Below are positions 16,769 to 47,786 of a DNA stretch of 64,000 nt, in pieces. Where the stretch lies: NCBI GenBank assembly GCA_012514035.1, contig JAAZBB010000072.1:1-64000 (forward strand), in the 5' to 3' direction. Source of the stretch: Lentisphaerota bacterium. GTDB lineage: Bacteria > Verrucomicrobiota > Kiritimatiellia > CAIQIC01 > Lenti-01. The position numbers and the translations under genes are program-made. The notes beneath the pieces are model-generated. The model searched no databases and was not told the DNA's origin. It was given only the letters and a program-made list of their open reading frames with translations. Positions within the stretch are counted from its first letter, which is position 1, and the number at the start of each line of letters is the position of its first letter.

Positions 16769-17577
16769 GAGTACCACAGCCTCGTCACGAAATAGCCCAG
16801 CGTCAGGATCAGCAGGAAGGAGACGATCACGCTGCGGCGGGTGGCGCGGCCGACGCCCACGGCCCCCTCCTGCGTGCGGAATCCCTGGTAGCACGACACC
16901 GAAACGATGATCAGCGCAAACACCACGGCCTTGACCAGCCCGACGTAGAAATCCTTGTTGTAGGTGAATTCGAACAGCCCGTCGTAGTAGGTTTCGGGCG
17001 CCACGCCCAGCATCGTGGCAGCCACGATCGCGCCGCCCAGCAGCCCGAGCACGTCCATGTAGATCGTCAGCAGGGGTGCCATCACCACCAGGCCCACCAG
17101 CCGCGGCATCATCAGGTAGCGCAGCGGCGAAACCCCCATCACGTCCAGCGCGGCGATTTCCTCGGAAACCGTCATCGTGCCCAGTTGCGCGGCGATGGCC
17201 GAACCCACGCTGGCGGCCAGGATCAGCCCCGTCATGAACGGGCTCATTTCCCGCAAAATGCCGTTGCACACCAGGGTGCTGACGTACCGCTCCTGCTTGA
17301 CCAGTTCCAGCCCGAGGCCCATCTGCACCGCGAGGATCATGCCGGTGAAAAGCCCCACCACCGTGACCACCCCCAGGCTCTTGATCCCCATGGTGTAAAG
17401 CTGCGTCACGACATTGGCGCGGTTGCGCGGCGTGAACGCCTGCGGCACGTAGGCCAGGGCCCCCAGCAGCATCAGCAGCGCCTGCCCCGTGCCCTGACAG
17501 GCGGCGATCACCCCGCGGCCCAGGGCGGCGACGGCGTTCACCGGGGGATCGTAGTATTGCTGTTCACGGGTGATCAT
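16765..17577 (-). CDS. mlaE: Mla-type ABC permease
   Basis: LFTGMILAVQMGLGLELVKQERYVSTLVCNGILREMSPFMTGLILAASVGSAIAAQLGTMTVSEEIAALDVMG typical MlaE. Confidence 0.95.
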   Translation of the reverse strand: MITREQQYYDPPVNAVAALGRGVIAACQGTGQALLMLLGALAYVPQAFTPRNRANVVTQLYTMGIKSLGVVTVVGLFTGMILAVQMGLGLELVKQERYVSTLVCNGILREMSPFMTGLILAASVGSAIAAQLGTMTVSEEIAALDVMGVSPLRYLMMPRLVGLVVMAPLLTIYMDVLGLLGGAIVAATMLGVAPETYYDGLFEFTYNKDFYVGLVKAVVFALIIVSVSCYQGFRTQEGAVGVGRATRRSVIVSFLLILTLGYFVTRLWYS

Positions 17578-19106
17578 GGCGGGGCCGGCGCCGCCGGCTG
17601 CAGGCGAATCCGCCCCAGCCACAGCAGGCGCACCTGACGATTTGTAGCCGTTCGGTCGTAGGCCAGCAAGCCTTTCAGCACCGACCAGCGCCGCGCGCCG
17701 TCGTCCGCAGTCCGCTCGTGACCCCACAGCGGGAAGAGCGAAAACGCGCGCGCGCCGCCGCGCCGGGTGTCGCGATACAGGCCCCACAGCACGTCCAGAT
17801 CGCTGTCCGCCCCGTTGACGCGATAATCCAGCACGGTCCACAGCGGGGCCCAGCTGCGCTCCACCGGCGGCGGATGGCCCGCCGGCCACAGATCCAGCAG
17901 GCGCAGGCGATAGGCGTCTTTTTCCAGATCGTAATTCCGCGAATACAGCGGCCACAGCTTCGTGCGGTTCGCTGTCACGCGCGCGGGGGTCGCCGGCTCG
18001 CTCTCCTGCGCCGGCGGCCGCCGGCGGCCCGCGGGGCGGGGATTCTCCGACTGCGTCACGTTGTGGTAGAACGGAATCAGGCTCCAGCGGTTTTGTTTCC
18101 GGAAGCCCCACTCGTTCTTCTCGTTGACGATCAGCGGCCAGAGCCAGAAGCGCCGTTCCAGCGCGCCGTCTTGCCGACGGCCGTAGAGCGGCCAGATCAC
18201 CAGCCGTTCGCGGAAGCCCGTCTCGCGCTGAAAAAACGGCCACGGGCAATACGTGCGCGTCATCTTTTCGCTGCGGATCTGCTGGATGAACGGCGGCAGG
18301 AACATCCAGCCCTTCTGGTTTTCCAGGTTGACGCGCCCGACCAGCGGGAACAGCACCCAGGCGGTGCCGTTGGCCTTCGGGTGCGTGTAGCGCGCGTGGG
18401 TCCAGAGCGGCCACAGCACCGCATGCTTCTCGTACTGGCGAACGTTTTTCGCCCAGACGTAGAACGGAAACACGCGGAATTTTTCCAGGTGCCGGTCGGG
18501 CGTTGTCGTCCGCGACCAGATCGGCCAGAGCACGTCCGTGGTCTGCACATCATGGATCCGGCTCTGCGCCCACAGCGGCCAGAGAAAAAAGCGAATGCGG
18601 TCCTGGACCAGGATGTTGCGGACTTCCCCGCCCAGCGGAAACAGCGCCGCGTAGGACGCGCCCTGCTCGTCGCGCCCGTGGAACCAGATCGGCAGCAGCC
18701 AGAAACGGTACTGCGATTCCGGATCCGTCCGGTCCTGGTCCAGGAACCACGAAATCAGCACCCGCCACGACTTCTGTTTTCCGAACGTGCTGCCCGCCGC
18801 CAGCGGCCACAGAACATCCCACGACTCCCGGTCCGCCGCCGGATTCCGCGCCCGCGTCCACAGCGGCCGCGGCGACGCCCGCAGGCTCAGCCCGTTCGTC
18901 CCCTCGGCCCGTTCCCAGAACGGACCGACCGCCCGGAAGCGCGCATTGCCGTCGCTGTCCGCCAGCCACGAGGCCACCGGCCCCCAGTCGCTCTCCACCA
19001 CCCGCGGCTCCACTGCCCCTTGCGCTCCGTCCGCCACCAGCAATGGAAAAAGAATGACGAAAAAAAGTTTTCCACACCGTGGAAAAAAACACCCCTTTTT
19101 TTCCAC
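17574..19106 (-). CDS. WPL(W/Y)-repeat exported protein of unknown function; start codon uncertain
   Basis: Coding ORF with about 17 degenerate (L/F)(W/F)PL(W/Y/F) motifs; ATGA overlap with mlaE; start placed at GTG 19106 tentatively, because no good ATG/RBS is seen. Confidence 0.7.
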   Translation of the reverse strand: MEKKGCFFPRCGKLFFVILFPLLVADGAQGAVEPRVVESDWGPVASWLADSDGNARFRAVGPFWERAEGTNGLSLRASPRPLWTRARNPAADRESWDVLWPLAAGSTFGKQKSWRVLISWFLDQDRTDPESQYRFWLLPIWFHGRDEQGASYAALFPLGGEVRNILVQDRIRFFLWPLWAQSRIHDVQTTDVLWPIWSRTTTPDRHLEKFRVFPFYVWAKNVRQYEKHAVLWPLWTHARYTHPKANGTAWVLFPLVGRVNLENQKGWMFLPPFIQQIRSEKMTRTYCPWPFFQRETGFRERLVIWPLYGRRQDGALERRFWLWPLIVNEKNEWGFRKQNRWSLIPFYHNVTQSENPRPAGRRRPPAQESEPATPARVTANRTKLWPLYSRNYDLEKDAYRLRLLDLWPAGHPPPVERSWAPLWTVLDYRVNGADSDLDVLWGLYRDTRRGGARAFSLFPLWGHERTADDGARRWSVLKGLLAYDRTATNRQVRLLWLGRIRLQPAAPAPP

Positions 19107-19170
19107 ACAATGGAAAAAATTTTCGCGGTTTTTCCACACAATGGAAAAAAAGTTTCCACAGTGTGGAAAA
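19068..19170. repeat. Array of four TTTTCCA-N5-TGGAAAA palindromes
   Basis: Units at 19068-19086, 19099-19117, 19130-19148, 19152-19170 (last imperfect). Confidence 0.85.
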
Positions 19171-19198: not shown

Positions 19199-20563
19199 TC
19201 ACAACAGCAGCCGGCCCTTCCCCGGCGACCCGACGAACTGCCCGTGGCGCACCATGATTTCACCGCGCACGGTGACGACTTCGGGCGCGCCGTGGACATC
19301 GATTCCTTCGTAGGGATTGTAGTCCGTGGCGATGCTCTGGGTTTGCCGGGAGAGGGTGCGCCGCGCGGCGGGATCCCACACCACCAGGTCGGCATCCGCC
19401 CCGGGGGCAATCGTCCCCTTGCGCGGCCACAGGCCGAAAATCTTCGCGGGATTTTCCGCCGCCGCCGCCACGAGGCGTTCGAGAGATATCTTCCCGCCGA
19501 CCACCCCCGCCGTGTAGGCCAGCGCCACGCGCTCCTCCACCCCGCCGATGCCGTTGGGAATCTTGGTGAAATCGCCGCGCCCGAGCTCTTTCTGGCCCTT
19601 AAAGTCGAACGGGCAGTGATCCGTGCCCAGGGTGTCGATGCGCCCGTCCGCCAGCGCGGCCCACAGCGCCGCCTGGTCGGACTTCTCGCGCAAGGGCGGC
19701 GAGAGCACCCATTTGGCGCCCTCGAAATTTGGCCGCTCCGCGCAGGTCTTGTCCAGCACGAGGTAATGGGTCATCGTTTCGAGGAACAGCTCGGAAATCC
19801 GGTCGCGGAAGCCGTCGGCCATGGTGAGGGCCGCGGCGCTGCTGACGTGCACGATGTAGGCCTTTGCGCCGGTGGCGGCCGCAAACGTCAGGAACCGGCA
19901 GACGCCTTCGGCTTCGACCAGGGGCGGCCGGCTCGGACCGTGCCATTCGGGCCCCGTTCGGCCCGCCGCCAGCAGTTTCTGCTGCAGCGCCGACACCAGT
20001 TCGGCGTTTTCGCAGTGCGCCATCACGATCAGGTCGCGGGCCGCCGCGAACTCCAGCACCCGGTACAAGTCCGTGTCGGACATCGCCAGGGTGGGCTTGT
20101 AGGCTAGATAGATCTTGACCGACCGCAGGCCCCTGGCCACGTAGGCCTCCAGTTGCCGGCGCGTGGTTTCATCGAACCGGGTCAGGGTCAGATGCCAGGC
20201 GTAGTCGCAGTGCGCCTGGCCGGCGGCCTGTTGGTCCCAGGCCGCCCAGGCCGCGTCGGGATCGGGCTCCAGGCCCGAACCGGCGAAATCCATCACGCAG
20301 GTCGTGCCGCCCAACAGCGCCGCGCGCGTGCAGGAATCATAGTCGGATTTCACCGTCACATTCTTCAGCGGCATGTAGGCGTGGACGTGCGGATCAATGA
20401 AGCCCGGGAACACCAGTTTGCCGGCCGCTTCGATCACCGTCGCGCCCGGCGGCGGGGCGATCTCCGGCGCCACGCGGGTAATCGACTCCCCCGCGCACCA
20501 GACATCCGCCGCCCGGCGGCCCGCGGCCGTGACCACTTCGCCCCCGCGGATCAACAGGCCCAT
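19199..20563 (-). CDS. Dihydropyrimidinase / D-hydantoinase family amidohydrolase
   Basis: GLLIRGGEVVTAAGRRAADVWCAGESI...VFPGFIDPHVHAYMPLKNVTVKSDYDSCTRAALLGGTTCVMDFAG; later GTDHCPFD. Confidence 0.9.
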   Translation of the reverse strand: MGLLIRGGEVVTAAGRRAADVWCAGESITRVAPEIAPPPGATVIEAAGKLVFPGFIDPHVHAYMPLKNVTVKSDYDSCTRAALLGGTTCVMDFAGSGLEPDPDAAWAAWDQQAAGQAHCDYAWHLTLTRFDETTRRQLEAYVARGLRSVKIYLAYKPTLAMSDTDLYRVLEFAAARDLIVMAHCENAELVSALQQKLLAAGRTGPEWHGPSRPPLVEAEGVCRFLTFAAATGAKAYIVHVSSAAALTMADGFRDRISELFLETMTHYLVLDKTCAERPNFEGAKWVLSPPLREKSDQAALWAALADGRIDTLGTDHCPFDFKGQKELGRGDFTKIPNGIGGVEERVALAYTAGVVGGKISLERLVAAAAENPAKIFGLWPRKGTIAPGADADLVVWDPAARRTLSRQTQSIATDYNPYEGIDVHGAPEVVTVRGEIMVRHGQFVGSPGKGRLLL

Positions 20564-36052: not shown

Positions 36053-38245
36053 TTATTCCACCGCGATCTGGATGTGATCGCCTAACCCCCGGTCCGTGCT
36101 GCACACGATCTGGTGCCGGCCACGCTCCAGGGGCCAAAACAACGGTTCCCCCGGACGCGAACGGCCCACCGGCCGGTCGTTGACAAACCAATAGAGCAGT
36201 TCTCCGGGCCGGTCGCTGGCACCGGTGAAGGCCAGGCGCTGTGCGGGCAGGTCCAGATCCGGCAGCCAGCGGAAGATGCTGTCGCGGGCCGGCGCCAGGA
36301 TCCGCACCGATTCCGCCGGCCCTTCCGGTTGAGGCGCCGCGCGCCGGGCCAGGAACGACGCCACCGGCGCAGGCCAGACATCTTCCGGCCCCGCGCGATG
36401 CACCGGGCAAACCTCGTGACGCGATATCCGGGCAATGGCCCAGTCCTCGATCCGGTGCCGGCAGTGCGATCCCGGAGCGCAGCCACTGGTTGCGCACAGC
36501 GCGCGTTTTTCAATGCCGGCCGGCCTGGCAAACCATGGCCCGACGTTGCCGGGATAGAGGCGGCGGAACAAATCCCACGCGACAGGAGTGGCCGCCTCGC
36601 GCCCGACCAGCCCCTCCGCCGAGGAGCCATCTGGATTTCCTACCCACACGCCGATCACGTATTCCGGATTCCAGGCCACAGTCCAGGCGTCGCGCAGGCC
36701 GGCCGATGTCCCGGTCTTCCAGGCCATGGGCGGCAGGCGCACGTCCGCTGCATGCCCGGTAGTATCCATTGTGCGCTCCTCGCCGGCGAGCATGTCGCTG
36801 ACCAGCCAGCAGGCCTCGGGGGAAAAGATGGGCTGCGTGGCCGGCCACGGGGCCGACTCCACGAACCGCGCCGGGGCCCAGCCTCCGCCGCGCGCGAGGC
36901 AGGCGTAGGCATTGGCCAAATCCAGCAGCCGGACCTCGGCATTGCCGAGCACGAGGCCGAGTCCGTAATGTTCCGGCGACCGGTCGATCGTCCCCAGCCC
37001 CAGCGAACGCAACACCGCGTGAAACCGCTCCTGCCCCACCCGTTTTTCAATTTCGATGGCGGGCAGGTTGAGCGACAGCACCAGGGCATCACGCACACTG
37101 ACGAGTCCGCGGTAATCCAACGAAAAATTGCGTGGATCAAGATCACGGAAGCGCGTCGGCACGTCCGGAATCACGGTGGCGGGGGTTACCAGCCCGCGGT
37201 CGATGGCCAGGGCATAGGCAAAGGGCTTGAGGGTCGAGCCCGCCGCGCGCCGCGCCGTCGCGCCGTTGACCTGCCCTGCGCGCCGCGCGTTGAAATAGTC
37301 GGGCGAGCCGGCCAGGGCGCGCACCGCGCCGGTCCGCACTTCCAGCAGCACCACCGCGCCACCCGCGGCGGCACTGGCGGCCGCATGCCGGCGCAGGACT
37401 TCTTCGGCGGCGCGCTGCAGGTCGCCATCGAGCGTGGTGCGCACCGTTGCATCCGCCGCCGCGCGCGCCGGCACCCCGACCCAATCGCAGAAATGCGGTG
37501 CCCGGAATGGGTACGGCACCGGGCGCACCTGCAGCGTCTGGGCCAGCGCCTCAGCCCGCTCGTCCGCGGTAATGGATCCGCAGGCCTCCATCCGGTCCAG
37601 CACATAGGCCTGGCGTTTCTTCGCCGCCGTGGGCCGGCGGTCGGGCCGCAGGCGCGACGGCGCTTGCGGAACCCCGGCCAACAGGGCCGCCTCGGCGAGG
37701 CTCAAGTGACCTGCACCTTTTCCGAAGTAGCGGCGTGCGGCGGCCTCGACGCCCACCAGGTTGCCGCCAAACGGCGCACGGTCGAGATACTGCGCCAGGA
37801 TTTCGCGCTTTTCCAGCCGCCGCTCCAACTGCAGTGCACGGAAGGCTTCGATGGCCTTGGTTGCCACGGTCCGCGGGCGGGGTTCCATCAGGCGAATCAC
37901 CTGCGTGGAGATCGTCGAAGCGCCCGACACGCGCCGCCCGCCGGCGAGATTTTGCACGGCGGCGCGAATCATCGCGACGGCGTCCACGCCCGGATGCGAC
38001 CAAAAGCGGCGGTCTTCCGCCGCCACGATCGCCTTCGTGATCCAGTGGTCCGGATCGGGCACATAGCCCGGCCGGCAATCGAACCCGCCCGTCGCCAATT
38101 TCACCCGCAGCGGCTCCCCGTGGCGGTCAGCGAGGACCACAGCGGATGGCAGGCGCGCGAGACTCTCCTCGGGAAAGGGCATCCACCGGACAGCCGCCAT
38201 TCCGGCCGCAACCAGAAAGACGACCGCCCACGCGGTCCGTTGCAT
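36053..38245 (-). CDS. pbpC: Penicillin-binding protein 1C
   Basis: Transglycosylase AAEDRRFWSHPGVD...SGASTISTQVIRL; transpeptidase GSTLKPFAYALAID; KTGTSAGLRDAW; C-terminal BiPBP-like region. Confidence 0.95.
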   Translation of the reverse strand: MQRTAWAVVFLVAAGMAAVRWMPFPEESLARLPSAVVLADRHGEPLRVKLATGGFDCRPGYVPDPDHWITKAIVAAEDRRFWSHPGVDAVAMIRAAVQNLAGGRRVSGASTISTQVIRLMEPRPRTVATKAIEAFRALQLERRLEKREILAQYLDRAPFGGNLVGVEAAARRYFGKGAGHLSLAEAALLAGVPQAPSRLRPDRRPTAAKKRQAYVLDRMEACGSITADERAEALAQTLQVRPVPYPFRAPHFCDWVGVPARAAADATVRTTLDGDLQRAAEEVLRRHAAASAAAGGAVVLLEVRTGAVRALAGSPDYFNARRAGQVNGATARRAAGSTLKPFAYALAIDRGLVTPATVIPDVPTRFRDLDPRNFSLDYRGLVSVRDALVLSLNLPAIEIEKRVGQERFHAVLRSLGLGTIDRSPEHYGLGLVLGNAEVRLLDLANAYACLARGGGWAPARFVESAPWPATQPIFSPEACWLVSDMLAGEERTMDTTGHAADVRLPPMAWKTGTSAGLRDAWTVAWNPEYVIGVWVGNPDGSSAEGLVGREAATPVAWDLFRRLYPGNVGPWFARPAGIEKRALCATSGCAPGSHCRHRIEDWAIARISRHEVCPVHRAGPEDVWPAPVASFLARRAAPQPEGPAESVRILAPARDSIFRWLPDLDLPAQRLAFTGASDRPGELLYWFVNDRPVGRSRPGEPLFWPLERGRHQIVCSTDRGLGDHIQIAVE

Positions 38246-38265
38246 CCAACCTGTCCGCCCGAATC

Positions 38266-41200
38266 TCACGGCACCACGCGCACGGTCCCGCCCGTTCCCA
38301 CGCCGCGGATTTCCGGTTCGTACATGCCCGAGACCACGACGGGCGGCCACGCGAAGGTACCGGGAGTCACCGCGCGGGCTGCATAATGGAATGATGTCCG
38401 GCCCTGGAACGGACCCGTGAAAATCAGCATCCGGTCGTCCCGCGCATCGCGATGCCGATCCGCTTCGGTCTCGTTCTTCAGCCAAGCCACCTGCTGCGAC
38501 GTCGCCAGATTCGGATTTTCGATTTCCCAACCCGCCGGCAGCAAATCCTCCACGACCATCTGGTCCAACAAGCGGTTGTGCGTATCCACCACGATGCGCA
38601 CGACGAACGGCGTGCCCTGCGACAGTTCGGCGGGATCCAGCGGCGTATTGTCCATGCTGACGATTTCGCGATGCACTTCGAGGTGTTCATTCTGTTCCGG
38701 CTCGGTTGCGGAGCCCACACCTTCATACTCTGCACAGAGATACAGATTGCCTGGCCCGGTGTTCATGACCGTCACGATTCCGGCCGCGCCGGGTTCCAGC
38801 GACCACGCCACTTCGTTGGTTGCGGTGAATCCGCGTTCCAAGCCGGGCAATTCCAACCGACCGGTGATGGGCGTTTCCTCGTCGGGCAGGTGCCGGGCCA
38901 TTTTGCCGAACGCGAGCAGGGCCAAGGCGTTGTCCTGCGTGTTGCCCCAGTGTCCGTCCCGCTGAGCGGCCCGCAGGAATTGAGCCAGCCGCGCCACGAT
39001 TTCGCTGCCCGGCTCGACTTCGAGCCAGGCGGAAAGCAGCAGGGCCGCATCGCGGATGTCGCTGTCGAGCAGGCGTCCCGGCACCCGCGGCCGCTTGACG
39101 GGCAGCGGCAGCGATTCGAGCAGCGGCAGCGCGCGCCGCGGTTCGCCGGCAAGCAGCAGGGCCGAGGCGGCATGGATGCGCGCCGCGTAGTTGAGTCGCG
39201 CGGTCTGCTCGCGCAAGCGCGCGTTCCAGCCGGCATCGGGCCGGCCCGCCAAGGCCAGCACGTGGCACATATATGCCCGCCGCTGCATGTCGAGCAGCCA
39301 GGCATCCCGGTCCGCATCGGTCGGGGCCGCCTGATCGAGGCTGGCGCGCAGCCAGCCCAGCGCAGCCTCAAGGCAGTCGGCGGGCACATCGTAGCCGGCG
39401 GCCTTGGCCTCCACGAGAAAATGCACGGCGTAGAGCGAAGCGTCTGCGTTCACCCCGCGCCAGAACGGCCACGGCGCAAAGCCGCCGTTTTCCTGTTGCA
39501 TCGCTGCGGTGCGCTGGATGGCCGCCGAGACAAGGCCCGCGGTATCGCCGATGGCGCGGCTTCCGGGCAGCAGGCGGCCGGCCCACTCGGGCGCATGCAG
39601 CAGCGGGAACGCCCCCGACACGGTTTGCTCGAGACAGCCGTAGGGATAATGCACGACATAATCCAGGGCGCGCCCGAGCTGCACCGATGGCAGCGACGAC
39701 AGCGTACCCGACATAGACACGGATTCCGGCAGCCAATCCGCCGGCGGTTCCAGCGTCGCGCTTTCCCCGGGCTTCAGCACGCTGCTGGTTGCCGCCACGC
39801 GGCTGCCCGCCGCCGGCCGCACGGCCAGCTCGATGGTCTCGCGGTACGAATTTTCGCCCGCCTCCGCCTCCAGCGTGCACAGTGCCTTGCCCGGCCCCGG
39901 CCCCGCCACAAGCGGAATCGCGACGTTTGTCGCACCGCCCGCGGGCAGCGAAATCCGGTGGTCCGCGATTTCCGCGCGCAGCGGCCCGCCGCAGACGGTG
40001 CGCAGCGTGGTCTCGAGCGGCGCCGCCCCTTCGTTGTAGAGCGTGACCGTCCCCTCGCTGCGATCGCCAATGGCCAAAAAGCGCGGCAAGGCGGGCTGGA
40101 CGATCAAATCGCGTTTCACTTTCACCGGTATGGAAGTTGAGCCCGTCTGCTCCGCGTTGTAGGCCACCGCCATCAGCCGCAGCTCGCCGTTGAATTCCGG
40201 CAGTTCCAGGGCAATCGCGGCCTGCCCGTTGGCATCCAGCGGCAGCGCGGCCCGCCACAGGGCGACGGGCTTGAACCGATTGGCCTTGATGGGATTGAGC
40301 CGGCGGCGCAACACATCTTCGCCATCGCCGCCGGGCGCGGGCACGGCTTCCATGTGGTCTTCGGTCACAGGCATCAGCTCGGCATACAAATCATACGCCG
40401 CCACGCCCAGGGCCCGCTGCGCTGAAAAGAGTTGCTCCGGGTCAGGCGTCTCAAACGCCGTCAGCATGCAGATGGCTTCATCCACGGCCATCACCGTCAC
40501 CGCGCCGCGAGCGGGCTGGCCCGCGGCGTCGCGCACGGTCACCGTGCCCGACAATTCCGCCTGCGGGCGTACCACGGCGGGCGCCTCGAACTCCACCCGC
40601 AGACGGGCCGCAGGCCGGTCCACCGGCAGCGCGATGGCGCCGATCGCCCGGTGTGCACTCCAAACCGGTTCCGCCACGGCCGGCCGGATCATCGTCAACG
40701 CGCAATAGGCGTTGGGCGCATAGCCGGCTTCAACGGGCACCTCCAGCTCCGCGGTGTTTTTCTCCAGTGTCACGAGCCGCGCTGCGCGCACTTCATCGGT
40801 TTCGATCGTCAACAGCGCGGGCCCCGCGAACGGGGCGCGCACCTGGAGGCGGGCCATGTCGCCGGCCATGTATGTTTCCCTGTCCCACGCCAATTCCACG
40901 CGGCCGGGCTTCTCGCGACTCCACGCCACCCACTCCGCATCCGCCGAACCGGCATGAAAGTCGATCCGCGTCGAAGATCCCGAAGCCGGATCCAGCGCCG
41001 TCAGCGTGTAGGCGCCCGCGGCATCGACAGCGAAGGCCCAATCGCGCGCCTCACCGCCGGCCGCCAGCGTGTCCTTGCGGATCTCGACGACCTGGCGTTC
41101 CGATTTCCACTCGTAGCGGCCGTGGGAATTGCGGCGCAGCACCGAATTCCAGGACACCCGCGACAGCGCCAGTACCAGGGGTTTGCCGTCGGCGACGGCC

Positions 41201-43668
41201 GTGCCGTCGGGTGCGATTTCAACCACGGCCACGCGCTGGGTGTCGCCAACGCGAACCGCCCCCTCCCAGGCGGGTTTCAGGCCGACGTAAAACGGATAGG
41301 GATCCAGCCGGCACCCGCCATAGGCCGTCACCGACCGGCCGCCGGTTTCCGTGACCGTGGCCTGCTGCACCACCTGCAGCGCCGCAGGCGGGCGCCACGC
41401 CCGTTGGCTTTGCACCTCGAATTCCGCATGTCCGTTTGCGTCCAGCGTCTTCGTGCCCAGATTACGGTAAACGGGACTGAAGTCTTTTTCGGCATCGCCG
41501 AACTGCCAGCCCGGCCAATTGGACGGGGCAAACGGCGCGGTCTTGAACGTGGCGGCGCCGGTGACCTTCAGTCCGCTCGCCGCGCGCCCAAACAGGTGAG
41601 CGGCCGTGACCCGGAAGCTGACCATGTCGCCCGCTTCGCCGCCTTCCGCGGCCGGGTGCACATCTACCCGGATTTGCGGCGGCACAAAATCCTCCAGCGC
41701 AACCGACGTCTGCCCCAGCACGGTGTGGGTACCCGGCATGGCCAGTTCCACGCCGTAGCGGCCGGTCGGCAAATAATCCGGCAGGACGACTTCCGCCTGG
41801 GCGGCGCCGAATTCATCGATTTCGACCGGCACATCACGGAACACCCGACCATCCGGCCGCCGTACCCGCAGCCGCGCGGGGAACGGTTCCGGGGCGCGAT
41901 GGCCGCCTTGGCGCGCGATGGCCTGCGCAAAAAGCGTCTCGCCGGGCCGGTAGACGCCGCGAGGGCTGAACACCGCCGCCTCGATCTGGTCGGCATCCAA
42001 ATACGGCAATCCGGAGAGTCCCTCGCCCTGGTCCACGTGCGTGCGCTCCAGATCCAGAACGGTCAGATCGCCATCGAGTTCGGCCAGGACGACGAACGGC
42101 TCGGTCCCCTCGCCCGGGTCCCACGCCAGGCGCGCCAGGCCGTCCGCCCCGGTTTTGCCGCGCGCCAGCACCTGGTTGTTGCGCGCATAGACGGTGACGG
42201 CCGCCCCGGCCGCCGGCGCGGCCGTCCGCAGCGAATTTACCCAGGCCAGCAGACCGCCGCGATATGTCCGCACCGCAAGGCCCAAATCCGTCACGACCAC
42301 CAACCGGCCTTCGCCGTCGGCATTTTCGCCGCTGACCTCGAGCCAGTAGGCGCCGCGCGGTTCGCCCTCGGCCAACGCGCGCAGATCGACGGCTCCGTTT
42401 ACGGGGGCGCCATCCTTCGACTCCGGCAGGTCATGGGTCTGGCTGCGTTCCGTTCCGGCCAAATCCGCCTTGAGCGTTTCACCATGATACCTGTCCAGCC
42501 TGCGCCGGGCCATTTCCACCAGATTGTTCGCGTAGACTGGACGCAGGCCCGCGCGAAAGTGCTTCAGGTTCACCGCCAGCACCGGCACCGACAGCTTGCC
42601 CTGCGGCGACAGATACCGCCCGGGCGAATCCACCCGCACGGCCGGCTTGGGCAGGGGAAACTGCACGGTGCGGGTGATGGCCTGGGGCAGGCTCGAACTG
42701 TTGGCGGCGGGAAACCCGGCCTTGAACGTCACCTCGTAGATCTGGCCCGGTTTGAAATCGCCCTTGAGCCGCAGGCCGGTCTCCCACCAGCGCTTGACAA
42801 CTTCTGCCGTGAATGAGACTTCCGGCTCAACCGCAATGTATTCCTTCAGGCCGTTCGGCTCCGGAAAGGCATTGAATTCCGCCCAGAGCTCCGGGGCTTC
42901 AAACGACGGCGACGATGCCTCGAGGTCGCGCAACTGCAGGTTGTGCTGCAATTCCAGCGAGCCCTGGCGCGGCTTATCCTCGGGCATGACGTCACCCGAG
43001 GCGGCCGGCAGACCGGGATCCAGCGCGTAGTCCAGGCGTTCCGCCAGCACCGGTTGTGTCTCCACCCACACCGCGCCGCTTCCGGTCGTGCCCAGCATCC
43101 AGTATTCCACCTGGTCCTGTCCCGGCGCCGACAGGCGGAAAAAGCGCGTAATCTGGCTGCGGTCCGGTTCCTCGTTGAATGTCAGCCGCAGCGTCAGTTC
43201 TCGATCCGGCGACACATCCACCTGCTCCACATTGCGCAGGCGCAGCACGCGCTCCACGGGACGTTCCGGTTTGGCGGCCGGCTCCCGGGCCGGAGGCGGT
43301 TCCGGCCGCGAGGTCCACTTCCATACCCCGTAGGCATTCACCAGCAGGAAGCCCAGGGCGAGCCAGAACCACCGGCCGCCCCCGGCCCGGATCGCCGCGG
43401 ACCCGGCCGCCGCTGCGGCCGCGGTGGCGACTTCGATCGCGGCTTCCGCAAACGTCTCCGGCGGATCCATCTCGGCGAGCACGTGTTCCACGGCTTCCAG
43501 GCCGATTTCACCCCCGGCGGTTTCCAGGCGCCGCACGGTTTCGCCGATCTGATCACGCAGTCCCGCGACGATTTCCCGGCGGACATCCGCCGGCTTGTGC
43601 CTCACCTGTTGTTCCACCGCGCGCAGGTATTCCTCCACCCGCCGTTCCGCCGCCGCGCTCCACTTCAT
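38266..43668 (-). CDS. Alpha-2-macroglobulin family protein with N-terminal HAAS-like region
   Basis: Thioester motif YPYGCLEQ (CLEQ codons at 39625-39636), MG domains; N-terminal AAERRVEEYLRAVEQQVRHKPADVRREIVAGLRDQI plus TM; ATGA overlap with PadR gene. Confidence 0.9.
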   Translation of the reverse strand: MKWSAAAERRVEEYLRAVEQQVRHKPADVRREIVAGLRDQIGETVRRLETAGGEIGLEAVEHVLAEMDPPETFAEAAIEVATAAAAAAGSAAIRAGGGRWFWLALGFLLVNAYGVWKWTSRPEPPPAREPAAKPERPVERVLRLRNVEQVDVSPDRELTLRLTFNEEPDRSQITRFFRLSAPGQDQVEYWMLGTTGSGAVWVETQPVLAERLDYALDPGLPAASGDVMPEDKPRQGSLELQHNLQLRDLEASSPSFEAPELWAEFNAFPEPNGLKEYIAVEPEVSFTAEVVKRWWETGLRLKGDFKPGQIYEVTFKAGFPAANSSSLPQAITRTVQFPLPKPAVRVDSPGRYLSPQGKLSVPVLAVNLKHFRAGLRPVYANNLVEMARRRLDRYHGETLKADLAGTERSQTHDLPESKDGAPVNGAVDLRALAEGEPRGAYWLEVSGENADGEGRLVVVTDLGLAVRTYRGGLLAWVNSLRTAAPAAGAAVTVYARNNQVLARGKTGADGLARLAWDPGEGTEPFVVLAELDGDLTVLDLERTHVDQGEGLSGLPYLDADQIEAAVFSPRGVYRPGETLFAQAIARQGGHRAPEPFPARLRVRRPDGRVFRDVPVEIDEFGAAQAEVVLPDYLPTGRYGVELAMPGTHTVLGQTSVALEDFVPPQIRVDVHPAAEGGEAGDMVSFRVTAAHLFGRAASGLKVTGAATFKTAPFAPSNWPGWQFGDAEKDFSPVYRNLGTKTLDANGHAEFEVQSQRAWRPPAALQVVQQATVTETGGRSVTAYGGCRLDPYPFYVGLKPAWEGAVRVGDTQRVAVVEIAPDGTAVADGKPLVLALSRVSWNSVLRRNSHGRYEWKSERQVVEIRKDTLAAGGEARDWAFAVDAAGAYTLTALDPASGSSTRIDFHAGSADAEWVAWSREKPGRVELAWDRETYMAGDMARLQVRAPFAGPALLTIETDEVRAARLVTLEKNTAELEVPVEAGYAPNAYCALTMIRPAVAEPVWSAHRAIGAIALPVDRPAARLRVEFEAPAVVRPQAELSGTVTVRDAAGQPARGAVTVMAVDEAICMLTAFETPDPEQLFSAQRALGVAAYDLYAELMPVTEDHMEAVPAPGGDGEDVLRRRLNPIKANRFKPVALWRAALPLDANGQAAIALELPEFNGELRLMAVAYNAEQTGSTSIPVKVKRDLIVQPALPRFLAIGDRSEGTVTLYNEGAAPLETTLRTVCGGPLRAEIADHRISLPAGGATNVAIPLVAGPGPGKALCTLEAEAGENSYRETIELAVRPAAGSRVAATSSVLKPGESATLEPPADWLPESVSMSGTLSSLPSVQLGRALDYVVHYPYGCLEQTVSGAFPLLHAPEWAGRLLPGSRAIGDTAGLVSAAIQRTAAMQQENGGFAPWPFWRGVNADASLYAVHFLVEAKAAGYDVPADCLEAALGWLRASLDQAAPTDADRDAWLLDMQRRAYMCHVLALAGRPDAGWNARLREQTARLNYAARIHAASALLLAGEPRRALPLLESLPLPVKRPRVPGRLLDSDIRDAALLLSAWLEVEPGSEIVARLAQFLRAAQRDGHWGNTQDNALALLAFGKMARHLPDEETPITGRLELPGLERGFTATNEVAWSLEPGAAGIVTVMNTGPGNLYLCAEYEGVGSATEPEQNEHLEVHREIVSMDNTPLDPAELSQGTPFVVRIVVDTHNRLLDQMVVEDLLPAGWEIENPNLATSQQVAWLKNETEADRHRDARDDRMLIFTGPFQGRTSFHYAARAVTPGTFAWPPVVVSGMYEPEIRGVGTGGTVRVVP

Positions 43669-44015
43669 GTCTGGGGTTCCCTCTCTGGTTTGCCGGACTT
43701 CAATTCGTTCAAGGCCTTCGTCAACATCGGCCAATAGGCGTTCATTTCCGCAAGACGCACCTTGCCGCGCGGCGTCAGGGCAAAATAGCGGCGCGGCGGG
43801 CCCGCGTCCGACGGCACGTCGCGCGATTTCAGGAAACCCTCCGCGCGCAGCCGCCCCAGGATCGGATAGACCGTGCTTTCCGAAACCGCCAGGTCTTCGA
43901 TGCGCTTGAGGGCCTGCACGATCTCGTAGCCGTAGCTTTCCCCGCGCCGCAGCACCAGCAGGACGCAGTACTCGAGCAGCCCTTTCCGCAACTGCGTGAT
44001 CCAGCCCTCGATCAT
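43665..44015 (-). CDS. PadR family transcriptional regulator
   Basis: QLRKGLLEYCVLLVLRRGESYGYEIVQALKRIEDLAVSESTVYPILGRLRAEGFLKS. Confidence 0.93.
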   Translation of the reverse strand: MIEGWITQLRKGLLEYCVLLVLRRGESYGYEIVQALKRIEDLAVSESTVYPILGRLRAEGFLKSRDVPSDAGPPRRYFALTPRGKVRLAEMNAYWPMLTKALNELKSGKPEREPQT

Positions 44016-44032
44016 CCGCTACTCCGCATCAT

Positions 44033-44053
44033 GTATTACGCAATGCATAATAC
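44033..44053. promoter_or_regulatory. Candidate PadR operator GTATTA-N9-TAATAC
   Basis: Inverted repeat ending 18 bp upstream of padR-like start. Confidence 0.45.
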
Positions 44054-44136
44054 CGGGGCGGATGTCAAGCCCGCTTGCCTCCTCGGATGTGTCCTGCTCG
44101 CCGCAGGGGAATCGCGGCTCGTTGCCCGCCCGCCGG

Positions 44137-44216
44137 TTTTCCACACCATGGAAAAAATCGGCGTTTTTTTCCACACAATGGAAAAATATTTCGCCGGTTT
44201 TCCACACAATGGAAAA
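44137..44216. repeat. Array of three TTTTCCA-N5-TGGAAAA palindromes
   Basis: Units 44137-44155, 44167-44185, 44198-44216. Confidence 0.85.
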
Positions 44217-44258: not shown

Positions 44259-47200
44259 TTACGGCGGCGGCGGCGCGAACGGCGCGATGACGCGGTAGAA
44301 CCGGGTTGTCTCCGCCGCGTTGGTATCGGTCTGGGTGTTGGCCGGGCCAAGCACCACGGGACCCCACGTTGTCCAGGAAACGTTGCTGGCGCTCACGAGG
44401 TTCGACGCCCACTGCGTCCAGTAGGTCACGTTGCTTTCGCTGGCCCACCAGATCGTAGCCGTGCTGGGCGCGGAATAGACGATGTTGGTGATCCGGAACG
44501 TGCTGGGGTCCGGGCCGTTCTGGAAGACGGCAACCTCGTAGTCCTCCACTTCGCCATCCGTTGCGAAGCCGGTGGGCCCGAGGCCCCGGTAGCTGCAGAA
44601 GCGCACCCGGCCGAACGTGGTTCCCAGTTGAGCCGCTTGCGGCGTCGCAAATACCACGTCGTTGGTGCCCGGCACCAGGGCTTGATCCGCCACGACCTGC
44701 TCGCTGGCATCCCAACTGCCGTTCTGGTCGAAATCGATCCAGATGTTGAGGAACCCGTTGGTGGAGGCGGTAGCCACGATTGTCTTGGTTTCGCCCTGCA
44801 CGGCCTTGGCCAGCGTGACGACCAGATCCTCGTCATCCACGTTGGCGTTGTCATCGCCCAGCGCCTGGGCATCCGGCTGCCCATCGGGTTCGTCGTCGGG
44901 CGCGATTCCCAGGTAGTAGGCCGAGGGCATGCGGTGCCGCGCGCCGTCGTTGGCGAGCAATGTGGGATACCTCGGATCGGGGGCGTCGCCGAAGTCGAGG
45001 ACCTCGAGCCGCACTTCATAATCCTCCACCTCGCCATCCGTTTCCGCGCCCATGAACATGGGGGCCACCAGTACCGGTGGGTAGGTGGTGAAGCGCCAGC
45101 GCGAATGGGGGCCGCCGGACATGGTGGCGGGATATGCCGGAATTGAAAGCGGCAGGACGTTCAGGCCCGGTATGAGCGGTTGGTTGAAGAACGCCTGTTC
45201 GCCCGGATCGATCCAGGTGCCATTGGCGTTGAAATCGATCCATGCATTGAGGAAGCCCGGCACGGAAGCGATTACCTGCACCTGTGCGACCGAGCCGGCG
45301 ATCAGGAGCGGTGGAATGATCACGCCGTCCTCGTCGTCAATTCCCATCGGTGGATTGTTGTCGTCGCCGTCGGCATTGAGCGTCGGCTGGCCATTGGGTT
45401 CAAGGTCAACCCAATTGCCCAGGAAGACGCCGGGCTGGACGGCATGGCGCGCGCCGTTGTTGGCGAGGAGGGTCGGATAGCCGAGGGCCGTCATGCTGTC
45501 CCAGGCATCGCCGAAATCGAGAAGTTGCACCTCTTCCTGGATCGCAACCTCATAATCCTCCACTTCGCCGTCCGGGGCCTGGCCGGTGACGGCCAACCCG
45601 ACTTGCTGGGTGGTGTACCGGAAGCGCATGAAGGTATTTCCCACGATGGCGTTGCCGGGAATGACAAAGGCGAAGGTGTTCGTACCCGCCACCACGTTAT
45701 TGGTGGCGAAGATGTTCTCGCCCACATCCGTCCAATCGCCGTCAGCGTTGAAATCGATCCAGACGGAAAGGAAGCCGGCGGCCGAACAGATCACGTCGAA
45801 GGTGGCCGACCCGCCCATGTAGAGAGGCGAAGTGAAGTTGACGCCGTCCTCGTCATCGGCATTGTTGTTGTCATCTCCGGTGGCGGTGGCATCGGGCTGG
45901 CCGTCGCTTTCGGCGTCCACAAGGCTGCCCATGAAGACGCCGGGCACAACGCTGTGGCGGGCGCCGTTGTTGGCCAGCAGGGTTGGATAGCCAACGATGC
46001 CGGGGCTGTCCGGCGCATCGCCAAAATCCAGTTCACCCTCGATCCCGGTGACGGCCAAGGCCAGGTCCATGGAATTCTCGATCACTTGGGCATATTCATG
46101 CCCGTTGCCATAATGCAGATCGACCCAGACCTGGCGGTCGGGATCGAACCAGACCGCATCGTCTTGCCAACGCTCCTCGATCGGGCAGCTCTTCCAGCCC
46201 ATCGCGGCAGGTTCCTGAGACAAGATGTCCTGATAGCGGACGGCGAGCCAGTAGATGGTGCCTTTGGTCTGCACGAAGGCCACGTCGGCGGGGAAAGTGA
46301 AATCATATTGGAAAACCTGGGTATCCCCGGGGAAAACCCACAAATTCTGCGCGGGGTCGAACCACCACTCGGGAGCGCCGACGGCGATCCGGCCGGCGGC
46401 ATAAGAGAAAGGCGGCACATCCCGCGCCCACAGCAACTCGCCGGGATGGCTGTACAGATTTTCCGGGCCGGCCGGCACATCGCTGTAGATTTCCAAAGTG
46501 AAGGCCAGGCTGTTGAGCCCTTCCGACGGCAAAAGATCCTGATAGAACGAGGTCCAGATGTGCAGATCGGTGATGGGGCCGGTGAGCGTGCAGCGAAAAT
46601 CATTCGCCAGCATTTTCTCGACCAGGCTCACATCCACGCCATTGGAGGTCAGGTCGGGCGGTTGCAACCATTTGACGGGCGCGATGGGGATGATGTAGTC
46701 CTCCACTTCGCCGTCAAAGGCCGGTCCCCGATCGGTCAAGCCCTGCACTGTGCTCAAGCGGCAGCGGACAAAGGTCGAGTTCGTGGCGGTGATCGCGCCG
46801 GGCGTGAAGGGATACCACTGCGTGCCGTTGAATGCTCCGTTGTCCACGACGACCTGTTCGCCGGCATTCGTCCAATTGCCATCGCCGTTGAGATCGATCC
46901 ACATGTTGAAATAGGCGGTGACCCCGGCCGGGACGCTGGCGACCACCTGGACCCGGTTCTGCACGCCAGAGAACAATGCCGTCGGGAAGGAAACGCCGTC
47001 CTCGTCGTCCAGGCCGGTCGGCGGATTGTTGTCGTCGCCGAGCGCTTGCGCATCGGGCTGGCCATCCGCCTCGGCGTCGACGAGGGCACCCAGACAGAGC
47101 CCCGAACCAAGCATGTGCTGGGCGCCGTTGTTGGCCAGCAGGGTGGGATAGCCCAGGGCCGCCACGCTATCCGGCGCGTCGCCGCAGTCATACTCCTCGC

Positions 47201-47786
47201 CCGCCTGGATTTCGACGCGGTAGTCCTCGACCTCACCGTTGACGGCGAGGCCATCATAGCCCAAGGGTACCTGGTCGGTGGTGAAGCGGAACCGGGCGTA
47301 GCTGGGCCCGACGCTGGCCGTGCCCGGCACCGTTATTGGATAGTTGAACGTGCCGGCCCCGGGGGCATTGGCAACGAGAATCGCATCTTCCGCCTGAGAC
47401 CACGAGTTGTCGGCGCCGAAATCCAGCCAGCCGTACAGCCAACCCGCCGTTGAGGTCGTGATCTGGATGATGGCGGTTTGCCCGGCGACAAGCGGGGTCA
47501 TGAAAATGACCCCATCCTCGTCATCCGGCCCGGCCGGAGGATTCAGATCGTCGCCGTCGGCATTGCCGGTCGGTTGGCCGTCGGGTTCGACATCGACGCT
47601 GGCACCCAGATAGGCCCCCGTCACCACGGGATGCCGCGCGCCGTTATTGAGGAGCAAGGTGGGATAAAGGATCGCCGAGACCCCGTCCGGCGCGTCGCCA
47701 AAGTCGAGAGATTGTGCCGCTCCCGGCTGAATCCCCAACAAACCCGCACCCACCCAGAAAACTGCAACCGTCAGCTTCGTTTTCAT
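44259..47786 (-). CDS. Large secreted protein with tandem GEVED-type domains
   Basis: Signal peptide MKTKLTVAVFWVGAGLLGIQPGAAQS; five repeats LDFGDAPD..YPTLLANNGARH..DGQP..DDEDGV..GEVEDYEV. Confidence 0.92.
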   Translation of the reverse strand: MKTKLTVAVFWVGAGLLGIQPGAAQSLDFGDAPDGVSAILYPTLLLNNGARHPVVTGAYLGASVDVEPDGQPTGNADGDDLNPPAGPDDEDGVIFMTPLVAGQTAIIQITTSTAGWLYGWLDFGADNSWSQAEDAILVANAPGAGTFNYPITVPGTASVGPSYARFRFTTDQVPLGYDGLAVNGEVEDYRVEIQAGEEYDCGDAPDSVAALGYPTLLANNGAQHMLGSGLCLGALVDAEADGQPDAQALGDDNNPPTGLDDEDGVSFPTALFSGVQNRVQVVASVPAGVTAYFNMWIDLNGDGNWTNAGEQVVVDNGAFNGTQWYPFTPGAITATNSTFVRCRLSTVQGLTDRGPAFDGEVEDYIIPIAPVKWLQPPDLTSNGVDVSLVEKMLANDFRCTLTGPITDLHIWTSFYQDLLPSEGLNSLAFTLEIYSDVPAGPENLYSHPGELLWARDVPPFSYAAGRIAVGAPEWWFDPAQNLWVFPGDTQVFQYDFTFPADVAFVQTKGTIYWLAVRYQDILSQEPAAMGWKSCPIEERWQDDAVWFDPDRQVWVDLHYGNGHEYAQVIENSMDLALAVTGIEGELDFGDAPDSPGIVGYPTLLANNGARHSVVPGVFMGSLVDAESDGQPDATATGDDNNNADDEDGVNFTSPLYMGGSATFDVICSAAGFLSVWIDFNADGDWTDVGENIFATNNVVAGTNTFAFVIPGNAIVGNTFMRFRYTTQQVGLAVTGQAPDGEVEDYEVAIQEEVQLLDFGDAWDSMTALGYPTLLANNGARHAVQPGVFLGNWVDLEPNGQPTLNADGDDNNPPMGIDDEDGVIIPPLLIAGSVAQVQVIASVPGFLNAWIDFNANGTWIDPGEQAFFNQPLIPGLNVLPLSIPAYPATMSGGPHSRWRFTTYPPVLVAPMFMGAETDGEVEDYEVRLEVLDFGDAPDPRYPTLLANDGARHRMPSAYYLGIAPDDEPDGQPDAQALGDDNANVDDEDLVVTLAKAVQGETKTIVATASTNGFLNIWIDFDQNGSWDASEQVVADQALVPGTNDVVFATPQAAQLGTTFGRVRFCSYRGLGPTGFATDGEVEDYEVAVFQNGPDPSTFRITNIVYSAPSTATIWWASESNVTYWTQWASNLVSASNVSWTTWGPVVLGPANTQTDTNAAETTRFYRVIAPFAPPPP

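Follow-up and report, generated by a model that had tools for sequence, protein, structure and literature searches.

Multi-operator arrays occupied by helically phased dimers are built of palindromic sites, separated by an integral number of helical turns, and hold a conserved position upstream of a gene. Noc sites and matS are dispersed palindromes, each bound by one dimeric protein and distributed with a regional bias; such sites are not known to form phased arrays. A further point of comparison is provided by extragenic repeats. REP sequences are defined as palindromes that bear a tag, GTAG or CGTC, on one end (PMC3733652). BIMEs are bound by IHF and gyrase, and links with chromosome organisation and with termination have been described for them (PMC2817692). 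The GTAG repeats reported from Opitutus terrae are a different element from the one described below.

The arrays considered here were noticed in a 64,000-nucleotide stretch of DNA, referred to as the window, from a genome of the class Kiritimatiellia. Like multi-operator arrays, they consist of palindromes at integral-turn spacing and keep their place upstream of a gene, pheS; they differ by the hundreds of sites present genome-wide, by their frequent location at 3' ends or convergent junctions and by neighbors devoid of a common function. With Noc sites and matS they share dispersed palindromes, the bound protein being putative in the present case, but they are organized in phased arrays. The resemblance to REP/BIME elements lies in extragenic palindromes, numbering tens to hundreds per genome and grouped in regularly spaced clusters. 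The arrays are nevertheless distinguished from these by AT-rich outer arms, an invariant recognition sequence, a helical 22/31 spacing and conservation at pheS, and neither the GTAG/CGTC tag nor a tie to Y1 transposases was found.

Structure of the arrays

The first array under study comprises three perfect 19-bp palindromes of the form TTTTCCA-N5-TGGAAAA: unit 1 at 44137..44155 (TTTTCCACACCATGGAAAA, core CACCA), unit 2 at 44167..44185 (core CACAA) and unit 3 at 44198..44216 (core CACAA), to which no strand is assigned. All three match 14 of the 14 fixed bases, and the starts, cores and spacing of 30 and 31 bp proposed in the sequence-only reading were confirmed. The intervening spacers, on the plus strand, are the 11-nt AAATCGGCGTT (44156..44166), as placed by an alignment of 35 arrays of the host genome, and the 12-nt ATATTTCGCCGG (44186..44197), which is near the spacer A-N-TTTT-C-G-S-S-G-T derived as a consensus from genomes of the family. 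The second array, correctly announced 25 kb away with the same motif, extends over 19068..19170 (plus strand) and contains four units at 19068, 19099, 19130 and 19152, spaced by 31, 31 and 22 bp, the last one with a single mismatch. Third-order Markov shuffles of the window yielded 0 perfect units and 0.3 units at up to two mismatches, so that the chance expectation is about zero.

The 44137 array lies between two minus-strand genes. The gene ending beside it (44259..47786) encodes five GEVED domains and a DUF7901; its stop had been properly located at 44259, but the distance to the array is 42 nt instead of the 43 nt announced, since the stop codon ends at that position. On the other side, a PadR-family regulator gene (43665..44015) starts, as claimed, at 44015, 121 nt from the array. 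The 19068 array is likewise surrounded by minus-strand genes, a 479-aa gene without Pfam family on the left (17574..19013) and an amidohydrolase gene on the right (19199..20563).

The host genome (G000) is available as a 2.78 Mb assembly of 86 contigs. In 631 kb of it, made up of the window and 40 further stretches, most of which were chosen around arrays, 43 arrays of at least two units were found, all of them intergenic. Their units are spaced by 22 (31 times), 30 (40 times) or 31 bp (46 times), with three exceptions, which corresponds to 2 and 3 helical turns. At 112 loci from many other genomes the spacing is 21-22 or 29-33 bp, and values of 23-28 bp are entirely missing among hundreds of unit pairs, though the search pattern permitted them. 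Absence of the spacing from other copies had been named as grounds for abandoning the functional reading; upon comparison, those copies were found to keep it.

Most host arrays display the directional order S-30-C-31-C-22-S, where C stands for a CACAA-core unit and S for a symmetric one, TTTTCCAC-NNN-GTGGAAAA, the three central bases of which are found in both orientations. At fixed array positions these centers read ACC or GGT, and ACT or AGT, as if the palindromes had been flipped by template switching. In the alignment of 35 host arrays, conservation stops abruptly at the outer units, and invariance is equal for CCA...TGG and for the A/T tracts. The 12-nt spacer pattern given above is common to genomes of the host family, even those with differing cores, and spacers resemble one another more than shuffled spacers do; those of other families are seemingly unrelated. 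The cores are specific to lineages (ATCAT, AGCCT, CGCTA, CACAA and others) and the spacing is the same throughout. The arms and spacing are therefore held while the center drifts. A two-fold symmetric, invariant site and an integral-turn spacing between sites, both of which characterize phased operator arrays, are thus present. Short heptamer-like intergenic repeats (TTGGATATTGAATATTGAAT, TCAGGGTTCGGGGTTC) are often observed beside the arrays and also at the 19068-locus junctions of the relatives G005 and G006; some of them sit in gaps missing from a relative.

Distribution and conserved positions

Of 289 class genomes, 51 contain pairs of strict units; pairs with the relaxed core TTCCA-N5-TGGAA were detected in 49 of 131, with up to 749 per genome. 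Array-bearing genomes were found in families f1-f4, f8, f10, f11, f13, f15, f18, f20 and f21, and array-free ones include G008, G027 and families f12, f22, f33 and f38. Outside the class, relaxed-core pairs occurred in a single one of 263 genomes from the other classes of the phylum, and the reversed control pattern gave zero matches. The records containing array pairs are labelled Kiritimatiellae, Verrucomicrobia, Lentisphaerae and similar. The arrays are therefore nearly restricted to the class Kiritimatiellia, where they are widespread. A viral origin was rejected, as a pair was present in one of 2.9 million viral contigs. No paper linking Kiritimatiellota or Kiritimatiellae with such repeats, and no published description of the phased palindrome arrays, was found in the open library searched.

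No perfect unit lies within a gene body in the host genome or in its same-genus relative G001. Among 209 arrays placed in these two genomes and in named relatives, 142 are in tandem, 38 in convergent and 29 in divergent junctions, compared to 428, 88 and 176, respectively, for gaps of 80 nt or more that lack an array. Convergent junctions are thus enriched and divergent ones depleted (odds ratio of convergent versus divergent 2.6, P = 0.0007). Within tandem pairs, 101 of the 142 arrays are closer to the stop of the first gene than to the start of the second, these distances being approximate because genes were called with a simple model of our own in which arrays were masked. The uniform genomic context suggested by the two arrays of the window is consequently general in part: tandem junctions hold most arrays, but arrays are also retained directly upstream of pheS and other genes. 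No Pfam family is enriched among 79 flanking proteins, and the genes adjoining the largest arrays are housekeeping or of unknown function. A polarity relative to replication strands was also considered: array orientation tracks GC skew for 27 of 32 arrays on four contigs of G001. It was discarded, as the relation is not observed in the host genome and arrays were too few in G009 and G011.

Conservation of array positions was examined on 101 gene pairs adjacent in both the host genome and G001 (median protein identity 77%). An array is present in G001 at 8 of 12 junctions carrying one in the host, versus 1 of 89 array-free junctions; when restricted to gaps of at least 80 nt, the proportions are 7/11 and 1/17 (P = 0.002). 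Orientation differs at some orthologous junctions. At two junctions the host has 180-208 bp with an array, while the corresponding genes of G001 show a 1-4 bp overlap, and arrays are therefore gained or lost besides being kept. In every one of the seven genomes of the genus, the junction of the 19068 array contains units, 1 to 5 in number and with differing cores. One genome of the same genus, G006, has lost nearly all its arrays (6 relaxed pairs) and keeps units at the 19068 locus and at pheS; it offers a handy contrast in the search for the putative binding protein.

Clustering of the genes adjacent to arrays in all genomes returned, as the top cluster, a 338-residue protein with an array 5-20 nt upstream in five genomes, which is PheS, the alpha subunit of phenylalanyl-tRNA synthetase. 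The upstream regions of pheS were then compared in 30 genomes, the loci being located by tblastn. Of the 24 array-bearing genomes, 20 have phased units in the 250 nt preceding pheS, the nearest unit 0-50 nt from the start codon, versus none of the 6 array-free genomes (G008, G027, G028, G030, G031 and G037, with G008, G027 and G030 classified by counts of the strict pattern alone). The base rate is 3.6% of G001 genes with an array within 150 nt upstream. Such a conserved position relative to a gene is again a property of phased operator arrays. The 20 genomes are related and therefore not independent; they belong to seven families (f1, f2, f3, f4, f10, f11 and f13), and the pair located, by its coordinates, about 70 nt upstream of pheS in G041 adds an eighth. 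In f11 and f13 conservation is limited to the inner core TTCCA-N5-TGGAA, with other outer letters. As the families have different cores, the pheS arrays are unlikely to have been inherited as a frozen sequence. Identical spacing in divergent genomes, positions kept within the genus and deep conservation at pheS support the initial argument for function rather than chance, and do so more strongly than the window by itself allowed.

Interpretation of the arrays

As the arrays are class-wide and kept before pheS in seven families, they most likely mark the place of assembly of a putative DNA-binding protein. Our preferred explanation, to which we give somewhat better than even chances, is that they are duplex DNA recognition sites for a putative dimeric protein and serve as intergenic boundary or regulatory elements. 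Each 19-bp palindrome, with its core TTCCA-N5-TGGAA, would bind one dimer, and the spacing of two or three turns would bring adjacent dimers onto one face of the helix, where they could touch. The intergenic gap may then contain a nucleoprotein patch, made up of some 2-9 dimers; such patches would overlap the promoter or leader region at pheS and would mark gene or operon ends elsewhere. Three observations count against this site model. The spacers and the fixed unit order (S-30-C-31-C-22-S) that host arrays have in common resemble the outcome of copying a composite element; the flanking genes have no common function; and no phased array precedes pheS in the array-rich genomes G011, G014 and G017, or in G007.

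The chief competing explanation, which we regard as rather unlikely, is that the arrays are selfish extragenic palindromes akin to REP/BIME elements, which a transposase multiplies and the genome tolerates between genes without host function. It would account for short, clustered, high-copy extragenic palindromes, for copies within a genome that share cores, order and partly spacers, for the two array junctions that are empty in G001, for variable orientation at some orthologous junctions and for the depletion of divergent junctions. The selfish dispersal that it implies is disfavored, however, by the retention of the pheS array through seven or eight families, and the helical phasing, which stays strict in lineages whose spacers are unrelated, also speaks against it. 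The consensus of 35 arrays carries no GTAG/CGTC tag. Multiplication by a RAYT was specifically rejected: the number of Y1 transposase genes is uncorrelated with the number of arrays, G010 has arrays and no Y1 match, and among the Y1 loci sampled neither the 1.5-kb flanks in G009 and G012 nor the 6 kb around two Y1 genes of the host contained a unit.

Action as RNA, in the form of 3' or leader hairpins that end or pause transcription or stabilize mRNA, appears improbable. Folding of single-stranded array RNA is much stronger than that of shuffled sequences (z of -4 to -8) and arrays are found near stop codons with enrichment at convergent junctions; tandem palindromes, however, fold whatever their function, and a phasing of 22/31 bp is left unexplained by RNA. 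Compensation was looked for in units that adjoin a perfect unit and have one or two mismatches in their arms. The host genome gave 0 compensated, 8 wobble and 31 uncompensated mismatches, and its relatives 1, 9 and 66, respectively. As arm mismatches are uncompensated and integral-turn spacing is a property of DNA, these sequence comparisons favor recognition of the units as duplex DNA rather than RNA. Between families the outer letters change symmetrically, which is expected under both readings. The arrays have no match in Rfam. A role in transcription read-through had been hinted at from the two loci, and it found no support: array-bearing 3' ends keep ordinary terminator-like sites when length is controlled. 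Replacement of terminators by arrays was dismissed on the same basis, as an apparent depletion in G001 (0/47 versus 53/284) was gone after an equal length was masked in the controls. At the 44137 array itself, the minus (sense) strand has no terminator-like site, that is, no G+C-rich hairpin followed by a T run, and the antisense strand alone scores.

A mode of action that needs no dedicated protein and relies on A-tract curvature or cruciform extrusion is very doubtful. The palindromes are AT-rich, and their A/T tracts recur every three turns in a genome of 65% G+C, but the CCA...TGG letters equal these tracts in invariance, and the A and T tracts inside a unit are not whole turns apart. The idea that the units are DnaA boxes (TTTTCCACA) titrating or positioning DnaA is scarcely credible, for despite 163 occurrences of TTTTCCACA versus 1 of TTATCCACA in the examined parts of the host genome, the cores ATCAT and AGCCT of other lineages give no DnaA box under the same grammar, no TTATCCACA-like site being kept across lineages, and the dnaA locus has no such site.

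Returning to duplex recognition sites, a broader proposal can be put forward tentatively, as one that we would not yet expect to prevail. A single putative protein recognizing TTCCA-N5-TGGAA, with a preference for the central letters that drifts from lineage to lineage, would form a class-wide chromosome-marking system. It would assemble on phased arrays in dozens to hundreds of intergenic gaps, with an ancestral control of pheS and a set of sites rebuilt in each genome. The arrays may also be of a mixed nature, being functional sites with surplus copies that spread. The strict class-wide grammar points to a putative global DNA-binding protein in a poorly cultured class, and the pheS array supplies a defined probe of 60-100 bp for fishing it out. 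Conserved places combined with fast turnover also make these arrays a test case for distinguishing functional site arrays from selfish extragenic repeats.

Genes neighboring the 44137 array

Counterparts of the 44137 array are unevenly distributed in the genus. G001 has a two-unit array upstream of PadR, and G003-G006 have none there. The GEVED orthologues of G001 and G004 possess units 3' of the gene despite its different location, the one unit of G001 being at a place separate from the PadR array; G003 and G005 have neither PadR-upstream nor GEVED-3' units. The gene immediately after PadR (38266-43734) encodes a large bacterial alpha-2-macroglobulin that has a HAAS domain close to the N terminus; behind it comes a penicillin-binding protein 1C-like gene (36053-38530). 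The sequence ATGTATTACGCAATGCATAATACC (44031-44054), a short distance upstream of the PadR start, is conserved among six genomes of the genus (G000, G001 and G003-G006), the surrounding region being otherwise diverged among them, and is likely to represent the putative PadR operator.
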